64,000 nt of DNA, taken from the NCBI GenBank assembly GCA_010015655.1, contig ML976743.1, forward strand, positions 248,001-312,000, read 5' to 3'. How positions within the stretch are numbered: the stretch's first letter is position 1; every line of letters starts with the position of its first letter. The stretch comes from Bimuria novae-zelandiae CBS 107.79 (Eukaryota; Ascomycota; Dothideomycetes; Pleosporales; Didymosphaeriaceae). Below, in pieces: positions 58,141 through 59,724 of this stretch. The position numbers and the translations under genes were made by a program. Under the pieces are notes generated by a model. It was not told the origin of the DNA, searched no databases, and was given only the letters and a program-made list of their open reading frames with translations.

Positions 58141-59724
58141 TTAAAGGCCTTCCTTCGCCAGCATGTCTGGACATCCTAGAGTTAGCGCAGATACGAGACC
58201 AGGCACGAAACACTGTGTTTCGAAACCATAACCGGGAATTTATCACTCGGTCCATCATGGTTCATTGTAAAGAAATGACAGGGGCCAAACGTACCTGCAA
58301 TGTCGAGGTAGAACGCAATGGCGTTGAAGCTGGTGCGGGTCAGTGTGTGGTAAGGAGATGCTTGGGGCTGATATCTCACTTTCGCTTGCTTCCTGTGAGC
58401 TCCCAGAAGAACCATTTCAAACGGTTCGTCCAATTTATTAGATCAAGGTGACTAACCCCAATCAAAGTCCCTTTGTAATCTCCCCACTGACTCGATTTCA
58501 CACTGCTAAAGTCAGAATATCGCCAGCGGTCCCTGTTGACATAAGATACTTGCCTGACAAGGCCATCGTTAGGCCCACCTTCCCTCTCTCTAATGATAGA
58601 ATGCGAGAGGGCAAAGACGGACCATGAAGATGGCTCCAGGCTTGCTCCATATGAATAATACCTAGCTCAATCAGTCAACCAGCCAATTTAAAGACCGTTG
58701 AAGCTCACTTGATGCCTTCGACGTCTGGTGTTTTGTCATTGAATTCTCCCTGCATATACTTGCGAGTCAACTGAGAAAAGGCTCCTGTTTCCAAACCAAA
58801 GTATCCCATGATCTTGTACAGTCTTTGGATGGAGTGTGCTGGTGGACATCAGATATATTCGCAATAGCTGCAGGGAACTCACGGCCAATGGTATCGAACA
58901 TGTAGTCGGCGAAAGCGCTTCCGCGATGAGGGGTTGCGATAGTCGTCAATGACAAGACTTTGACATTGTCGGGTCTGAGGCGACTGAGCATGTATCGTGA
59001 GTCGAGTCCACTAGAGACGTTCAGCTGAGCTCGTCCATCGAGATGAGATGGTTTACCCCTGTTCATGTATCAGCTTTCACGTCCAAGGTCTCGCATCTTT
59101 AATCACACACCATGCTATGCCTACTCCACGTTAGTCTTTAGTCCGAGCATCATCCAGTACGCTGGCAGGCACCGCACTTACGCAATAATATTCACAGCTT
59201 TCCCTTGCGCCTTCTGTGCGATAATCTCGGCCAGTCGCGCTGCTCTGGCTTCAATGCTTCCAGACGGTGGCACCGAAGCCACGATGACTTCAATCCCCTT
59301 CTGTGAAAGCGCATCGGTTATACCTCTCCAATATTGAATGCCGGGGAGAAAACGTCCTGCGAGTCGTATTTCGTCGAAGCCTAGGAGGCCGTGGGCGAGG
59401 ATTATTGTGTGCTTCTAGAGAGCAGTCAACGCGAAGGCACCTACCTCATCAGCGAGCAGCGAACGTACAGGCTTGTCTGTTCAGTGTTAGCAATGTTGCC
59501 AGAGATCTCTTAGAAAGCCTACCATATTCCTCTCTGATCACCGCATATTCGTCATCCAGAACACGTCCAATGTCCGACAATCGCGGGTCTTGATTCCGTG
59601 ATGGTGCATTACTGATGGCTCTTCGACAAGAAGGTGAATAGATAGCGCGTCGTGGTTGCGGTAGCTGTAGCTGTAGCTGTAGCTGTAGCGAGCAGAACCT
59701 CGCCTGGTATAGTGGTCGTATCAT
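58141..59724 (-). CDS. Alpha/beta-hydrolase lipase with eleven exons, including 2-nt and 10-nt micro-exons
   Basis: Exons on the minus strand: 59523-59724, 59445-59476, 59182-59414, 59111-59120, 59057-59058, 58883-59010, 58709-58838, 58554-58661, 58380-58502, 58295-58329, 58141-58166 (1029 nt, 342 aa). Splicing gives HTIILAHGLLGFDEIRL, YWRGITDAL, NIIAHSMGGLDSRYM with nucleophile Ser158, TTIATPHRGSAFADY, then YKIMGYFGLETGAFSQLTRK and FALSHSIIREREGGPNDGLV. GVSHLDLINWTNR and the end FNAIAFYLDIADMLAKEGL follow. This is the fungal family of lipase-like esterases with an HSMGGLD nucleophile elbow. The elbow itself is spread over four exons. The intron after 58554 is GC-AG. The N-terminus is Gln/Leu/Arg-rich (hexamer repeat) and could target mitochondria. 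Confidence 0.88.
59661..59690. repeat. Hexamer repeat (gtagct, 5 copies) inside lipase exon 1
   Basis: Encodes alternating Leu-Gln near residues 13-21 of the lipase on the minus strand. Candidate length-variable microsatellite. Confidence 0.85.

Follow-up and report, generated by a model that had tools for sequence, protein, structure and literature searches.

Predicted micro-exons of 10 and 2 nucleotides at the catalytic elbow of a lipase gene in Bimuria novae-zelandiae

How can the catalytic elbow of a lipase be encoded when its bases are scattered over four exons, one of them only two nucleotides long? The question is raised by a minus-strand gene at 59724-58141 of the window, a 64,000-nucleotide stretch of contig ML976743.1 of Bimuria novae-zelandiae CBS 107.79. 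Very probably, the nucleophile elbow AHSMGGLD of this gene is split by three short U2-type introns, with the serine lying on a 10-nt exon and the first bases of the glycine codon on a 2-nt exon. When the eleven exons of the model are joined, with exon 2 taken as 8 nt, they form an open frame with a coding sequence of 1005 nt and 334 amino acids, whose end is common to relatives; a preliminary description of this DNA had likewise held that the eleven-exon model was divisible by three with a conserved C-terminus. It had also claimed proper intron ends at each elbow boundary, and GTAAGT..GTAG, GTGTGT..ACAG and GTAAAC..CTAG were found on the minus strand. P0001 (Bimuria novae-zelandiae CBS 107.79), named below, is almost certainly the deposited model of the same gene.

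Exon 1, 59523..59724, minus strand: 202 nt; start MIRPLYQ, with a presequence-like N-terminus; P0001 is identical here.
Exon 2, 59469..59476, minus strand: 8-nt micro-exon ACAAGCCT (D-K-P), donor GTACGT; P0001 reads DKP-KHT, relatives mostly TP or AP before K.
Intron 2, 59468-59415, minus strand: between exon 2 and exon 3, donor GTACGT.
Exon 3, 59182..59414, minus strand: 233 nt; end ...NII-GC, phase 2.
Intron 3, 59121..59181, minus strand: 61 nt, GTAAGT..GTAG; branch ACTAAC about 10 nt before the end.
Exon 4, 59111..59120, minus strand: 10-nt micro-exon GCATAGCATG; completes Ala, then His-Ser-Met, including the catalytic Ser150.
Intron 4, 59059..59110, minus strand: 52 nt, GTGTGT..ACAG; branch-like GCTGAT about 11 nt before the end.
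Exon 5, 59057..59058, minus strand: 2-nt micro-exon GG, bases 1-2 of Gly152.
Intron 5, 59011..59056, minus strand: 46 nt, GTAAAC..CTAG; branch-like GCTGAA about 10 nt before the end; weak donor.
Exon 6, 58883..59010, minus strand: 128 nt; starts T-GGA-CTC (GLDSRY).
Exon 7, 58709..58838, minus strand: 130 nt.
Exon 8, 58554..58661, minus strand: 108 nt; catalytic Asp (NDGLV).
Intron 8, 58553-58503, minus strand: GC-AG intron, GCAAGT..GCAG, before exon 9.
Exon 9, 58380..58502, minus strand: 123 nt; catalytic His (SHLDLINW).
Exon 10, 58295..58329, minus strand: 35 nt.
Exon 11, 58141..58166, minus strand: 26 nt; ...DMLAKEGL stop; C-terminus common to relatives.

Upstream of intron 3, exon 3 ends in ...ATTATTGC, and the order across the elbow is ...AATATTATTGC, intron 3, GCATAGCATG, intron 4, GG, intron 5, TGGACTCGAC..., which reads NIIA-HSM-G-GLD. 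The spliced mRNA of Bimuria is accordingly predicted to contain GCATAGCATGGGTGGACTC at the elbow, and ATTGCGCATAGCATGGGTGGACTC is the predicted sequence of the four-exon junction. A longer exon 2 of 32 nt, with a 30-nt intron, was dropped in favor of 8 nt after comparison with relatives, because these and P0001 read ..P-KHT. The Arg-containing N-terminus encoded by exon 1 suggests mitochondrial import, and a CTACAG hexamer repeat at 59690-59660 encodes LQLQLQLQL within the presumed presequence.

Whether this layout exceeds chance was addressed by enumerating every splicing between fixed ends with up to three introns and a minimum intron of 20, 30 or 40 nt. At all three minimum lengths, only one path yields NIIAHSMGGLDSRYM with GT or GC (or AT) donors and AG acceptors. 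No such solution contains the exon beginning near 59073 that the preliminary description had named as its own alternative, and a single intron running from ATG to TGGACTC is ruled out by a frameshift. With the splice-site rules switched off (introns of at least 30 nt), no single-intron solution was obtained, and there were two two-intron solutions. Both use one non-canonical intron, 59109-59012 (TG..TA, 98 nt), in place of intron 4, GG and intron 5, which also gives HSMGG; since each canonical sub-intron has a branch-like site in the customary position, and TG..TA is not known to be a spliceosomal pair, this intron is extremely unlikely.

Among 20,000 dinucleotide-shuffled versions of the 100 nt from ATG to TGGACTC, 20 contained AG-GG-GT with sub-introns of 40 nt or more on both sides. 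A stricter count, requiring YTRAY in both sub-introns, gave 5 of 20,000, which is an unfair yardstick because intron 5's own branch-like site is CTGAA. Exon 5 thus has the form of an ultra-small micro-exon, 1-3 nt long and flanked by canonical AG and GT, and it is required to rebuild a conserved motif, as HSMGGLD is invariant in 33 homologues selected as intact and diverse and the frame is lost without GG. Two related arrangements were rejected: a stwintron, since each of introns 4 and 5, which GG separates, comes with a full set of donor, branch-like site and acceptor, and a zero-nucleotide recursive splice site, since two bases are left in AG-GG-GT. That the elbow is unreadable without the 2-nt exon might also be put down to a pseudogene or an assembly error, but the remaining exons are open and conserved, and gene models of many species, from several fungal classes, fail in the same way, which makes such a defect scarcely credible. 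The claim that four exons must be joined to obtain the HSMGGLDSRY elbow therefore stands, as the unique canonical path, the shuffles and the elbows of homologues agree. The 10-nt and 2-nt exons are present in the sequence, with a unique canonical splice solution and coding conservation, and the observation of these elbow micro-exons as such is confirmed at the sequence level; for the Bimuria mRNA, we infer the inclusion of both, as well as the order of intron removal.

The protein is, judged by its sequence, a Tgl2/lipase 2-like alpha/beta-hydrolase lipase. DUF676 and Abhydrolase_1 were found above the Pfam cut-offs, and the best sequence matches among solved structures include Burkholderia and Pseudomonas lipases. 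Ser150, Asp270 and His292 (numbering of the 334 residues) are matched in the alignment by Ser87, Asp264 and His286 of 1ys1, the catalytic triad of that structure. The serine on the 10-nt exon thus falls on Ser87 of the Burkholderia lipase, in keeping with the earlier attribution of this motif to a lipase's catalytic elbow, and the alignment contains the Ser-Asp-His triad with Ser in (G/A)XSXG that is characteristic of Tgl2/lipase 2. The fold was assessed on the AlphaFold model of a relative, P0013 (mean pLDDT 80), standing in for the Bimuria protein; its best match was Pseudomonas LipA 1ex9 (E 1.6e-18, TM 0.64/0.71). A first model of 342 residues served for the first homologue list, Pfam, the structure alignment and the comparison with P0001, while the corrected 334 residues were used for the final elbow counts and for a search of the genome, in which no second gene copy was found. 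Additionally, mS79 (6z1p_BK), a protein of the Tetrahymena mitochondrial ribosome, resembles this lipase family in sequence (E 6.3e-9) and in fold (E 9.7e-14).

P0001 agrees with the eleven-exon model except where splicing differs: it lacks HSMG, retains the GC-AG intron 8 (58553-58503), reading RQVSYVNRDRWRYSDFS there, and reads into intron 10, so that the DMLAKEGL end is missing. The deposited annotation might be correct, with exon 3 joined to exon 6 to give a lipase-like protein without the nucleophile, and the homologues bear on this. Three lists were compiled, the best 120 of 4584, 2766 and 3899, together comprising 295 different proteins (7999 candidates were scored for the first list). 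Homologues were counted as named when the source gives an organism; P0081, which has a product name only, was counted with the unnamed, labels were transcribed by hand, and in the final elbow counts no row was dropped and P0158 and P0189 were counted as intact. Among the matches listed, the [AG]HSMGG elbow is intact in 59 of the 212 named homologues and broken in 153, counts that are not independent events because many proteins come from close species. HSMGG is intact in all 83 listed homologues without organism names (tags lgn, jgi and ena), a set that favors uninterrupted reading frames by construction. Exactly HSMG, that is, 12 nt, is missing in 81 of the 295 proteins listed (50 of 196 and 31 of 99).

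The lgn tag was taken to denote assembled public read sets, some entries of which may be transcripts. Among the matches listed, 33 of the 83 come from contigs of more than 8 kb, which are probably genomic and in which the gene may be without introns. In the tree, built from 113 chosen rows of 196, P0009, P0010, P0013, P0016, P0022, P0054, P0057, P0060 and P0061 fall into one group, presumably Pleosporales, and their contigs measure at most 4211 nt. Pattern scans of viral_contigs and genome_contigs gave pattern matches, none of them from a relative.

In favor of the deposited reading, HSMG is missing from the annotation of P0001 and of 80 further homologues listed, the join of exon 3 to exon 6 is in frame, and intron 3 has the donor GTAAGT. 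Yet it would require stretches of 10 nt and 2 nt with canonical splice ends to encode HSMG by accident, the triad's other two members, Asp and His, persist, and every one of the listed homologues without organism names has HSMGG. Near-twins of deletion proteins also read HSMG. P0013, from a 4211-nt contig, and P0041, a Pyrenochaeta annotation without HSMG, are identical at 317 of 319 aligned residues, with both mismatches at the place of the 8-nt exon; in Parastagonospora nodorum, P0033 (deletion) and P0011 (HSMG) are HSMG and two residues apart. AlphaFold further separates the first pair, as the elbow strand of 133-139 in P0013 is shortened to 133-137 in P0041 and the helix of 141-153 to 140-149, and the pLDDT spread of the five models around the elbow is wider in P0041. 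The deposited annotation is therefore very unlikely to be correct at this point, and a split elbow is preferred.

The broken elbows of relatives look like missed micro-exons. In the named proteins, the gap fraction at H, S, M and G is 0.40-0.45, against a median of 0.005 for the rest of the core; a natural one-residue indel elsewhere has gap fractions of 0.70 in named and 0.58 in unnamed proteins. Read-through from intron 5 should leave a specific trace, as its AG immediately precedes the glycine codon's third base and AGN can only be Ser or Arg. Among the matches listed, 42 models carry HSM followed by junk (models broken in other ways are excluded), and 40 of them have Arg or Ser directly before GLD, the exceptions being P0121 (Asp) and P0228 (Thr). 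A plain HSM-S or HSM-R is found in many of the 42, and our guess is that these come from RNA-guided models in which the aligner placed the GG of the transcript on the genomic AG. Three records of Aspergillus niger read HSMG, HSMCSS and a deletion, respectively.

Translated AG-GG-GT signatures were sought in the six stretches of junk that reached 14 residues or more and are only suggestive. In P0126 (Pycnora), the 111 nt retained can accommodate introns of 50 and 58 nt with AG-GG-GT at their junction, a fit also reached in 15% of shuffled stretches of this type (4-15% over all six). P0261 and P0271 fit only if most of intron 4 is spliced away, leaving 8 and 22 nt; for P0093 an intron of just 4 nt would be needed, and P0074 and P0293 do not fit. 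Separately, the place of the 8-nt exon seems to be wrong in some relatives' models as well, as in P0041 (DSQ) and P0046 (STFKHQS). Some homologues bear misleading names: P0065 (Venturia) is called 'T-complex protein 1 subunit gamma', and several Aspergillus and Penicillium homologues are named 'GPI inositol-deacylase'.

Elbow defects are found across Dothideomycetes, Eurotiomycetes and lichen-forming groups, and in Xylona. The seven Leotiomycetes placed by name in the tree, Botrytis, Drepanopeziza, Cadophora, Oculimacula, Rhynchosporium, Coleophoma and Phlyctema, are all intact. Based on the error pattern of missed micro-exons in relatives' models, the micro-exon layout is probably old and common to Dothideomycetes, Eurotiomycetes and lichen-forming fungi, with relatives sharing, by inference, the same intron positions. 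In P0074, P0121 and P0130, C or Y comes after HSMG, pointing to a lack of intron 4 there; Neofusicoccum, Hypocenomyce and Acarospora are read here as lacking intron 4, with HSMG-C/Y arising as from a 12-nt exon ending in GG-GT. Introns 3 and 5 would then be old, and intron 4 would be old too or gained more than once. Given the intact fraction of the named models listed, the micro-exons may be absent from some lineages.

How such exons might be spliced was approached through the strength of the introns and the outcome of each failure. A training set of 23 introns was collected by joining long open frames in 264 kb of the same genome (the window and L009-L028); it is biased toward consensus because candidates were picked with a consensus seed. 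Scored against these 23, the donors of introns 3, 4 and 5 reach 5.5 (13th percentile), 7.0 (26th) and 2.4 (4th), respectively. Introns 3, 4 and 5 have their branch-like sites about 10, 11 and 10 nt before the acceptor, much like the remaining introns of the gene, and the CTGAA of intron 5 departs from the usual CTRAY; with this and its low-scoring donor GTAAAC, intron 5 is the weakest. In translated partly spliced forms, retention of intron 3 leads to an immediate stop, that of intron 4 to HSMVCD-stop and that of intron 5 to HSMG-stop. Skipping the 10-nt exon alone shifts the frame, as does skipping GG alone, which bears out the earlier prediction for the 2-nt exon. Only the loss of both micro-exons, 12 nt, is frame-neutral, and it deletes HSMG.

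Short fungal introns are thought to be recognized as units, so that short exons would be no obstacle as such. Introns 3, 4 and 5 could each be recognized across the intron, since none lacks a donor or acceptor of its own and all carry a branch-like site some 10 nt before the intron's end. Since splice factors can hardly flank 2 nt on both sides at once, introns 4 and 5 would most likely be removed one after the other, either order restoring ATGGGTGGA, and intron 4, whose donor and acceptor score better, would probably be the first out. The stepwise, intron-by-intron removal proposed earlier is thus plausible. Since a catalytic protein results only when all the micro-exons are kept, their inclusion is most likely constitutive.

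The preliminary description had also raised an on/off switch, for which no sign of regulation was seen, HSMGG being kept throughout the listed homologues without organism names. In its strongest form, the pair would be a regulated cassette whose double skip gives an in-frame, catalytically dead isoform. The pair sums to 12 nt, so that the double skip is frame-neutral and single skips are not, and a fungal micro-exon switch exists, the 20-nt exon of Trichoderma Xlr2 (PMC11121469). Against this, the skip occurs in 0 of 83 homologues without organism names among the matches listed, and the frame neutrality follows automatically from the positions of introns 3 and 5; regulation of this kind is improbable. 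Its extension, in which the 10-nt and 2-nt pair is an ancient cassette, older than the divergence of Dothideomycetes, Eurotiomycetes and lichen-forming classes, and was kept for the frame-neutral skip, is equally improbable; if true, the annotated 'deletion' proteins would partly be real nucleophile-free isoforms. Constitutive inclusion remains the preferred reading.

Ultra-small exons are already known. In Fusarium CYP621A, a 1-nt exon lies between AG and GT in a conserved motif and is covered by SRA reads (Nelson and Syed 2026, PMC12940212); its authors state that all deposited transcripts but one are wrong at this exon (PMC12940212). In both cases an ultra-small exon sits in a conserved motif of a filamentous fungus, AGGGT in Fusarium and AGGGGT in Bimuria. 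They differ in that the former measures 1 nt, with orthologues in Fusarium species and reads to support it, whereas the latter measures 2 nt, shows apparent conservation over several classes and is predicted from sequence. Arabidopsis APC11 has a constitutive 1-nt exon (PMC4674806), and plant VPS55 contains another (PMC8831610). Both are conserved among plants and, like the exon here, set the frame and are absent from annotations (PMC4674806, PMC8831610), while differing in being 1 nt long and in plants. An earlier statement that 2 nt is at the lower limit of splicing is superseded by the exons of APC11 (PMC4674806) and CYP621A (PMC12940212).

The Xlr2 micro-exon is likewise fungal and was missed by the JGI gene model, but it is regulated by glucose, ten times longer and part of a transcription factor gene (PMC11121469). 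Stwintrons offer a similar arrangement of two adjacent U2 introns removed consecutively; in them, however, a splicing element of one intron is broken up by the other (PMC12403724, PMC6616335), whereas in Bimuria both introns are complete with 2 exonic bases between them. On the side of the enzyme, the nearest structure to the yeast mitochondrial lipase Tgl2 is Pseudomonas LipA, and its S144A variant does not rescue the double mutant (PMC11889585). The (G/A)XSXG elbow, the Ser-Asp-His triad and a LipA-like fold (P0013 to 1ex9) are common to Tgl2 and the Bimuria family, the former being a mitochondrial lipase and the latter likened to it by sequence (PMC11889585).

No earlier report of this lipase exon was found among the titles and abstract openings listed, in a literature made up mostly of openly available papers; a phrase search for a 2-nt exon gave a sole match, which by its title concerns a rare-disease database. 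The exon is set apart by its position at the nucleophile, by the 10-nt exon that accompanies it and by how deeply it appears to be conserved.

Beside the lipase, a gene for V-ATPase subunit G (VMA10-like) lies at 60886-60290 on the minus strand; in its model, a first coding exon of ATG (3 nt) and a 9-nt micro-exon at 60664-60656 give the full frame MSAQNSAGIQTLLD...PRGRT. P0074 of Neofusicoccum parvum is an annotated fusion of V-ATPase subunit G and lipase, so that the two genes are probably neighbors there as in the window, where they span 60886-58141. P0137 (Candelina) also carries PF03179.

A 2-nt exon at the nucleophile of a widespread enzyme would suggest that such exons can persist over very long times. 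Many public entries for this lipase, including those of Alternaria, Aspergillus and Penicillium, would be without the catalytic serine on paper, and filtering on GXSXG in functional screens, enzyme catalogues or evolutionary studies would wrongly discard them. The locus may offer many natural replicates of how the spliceosome deals with exons too short to be recognized from both sides simultaneously.
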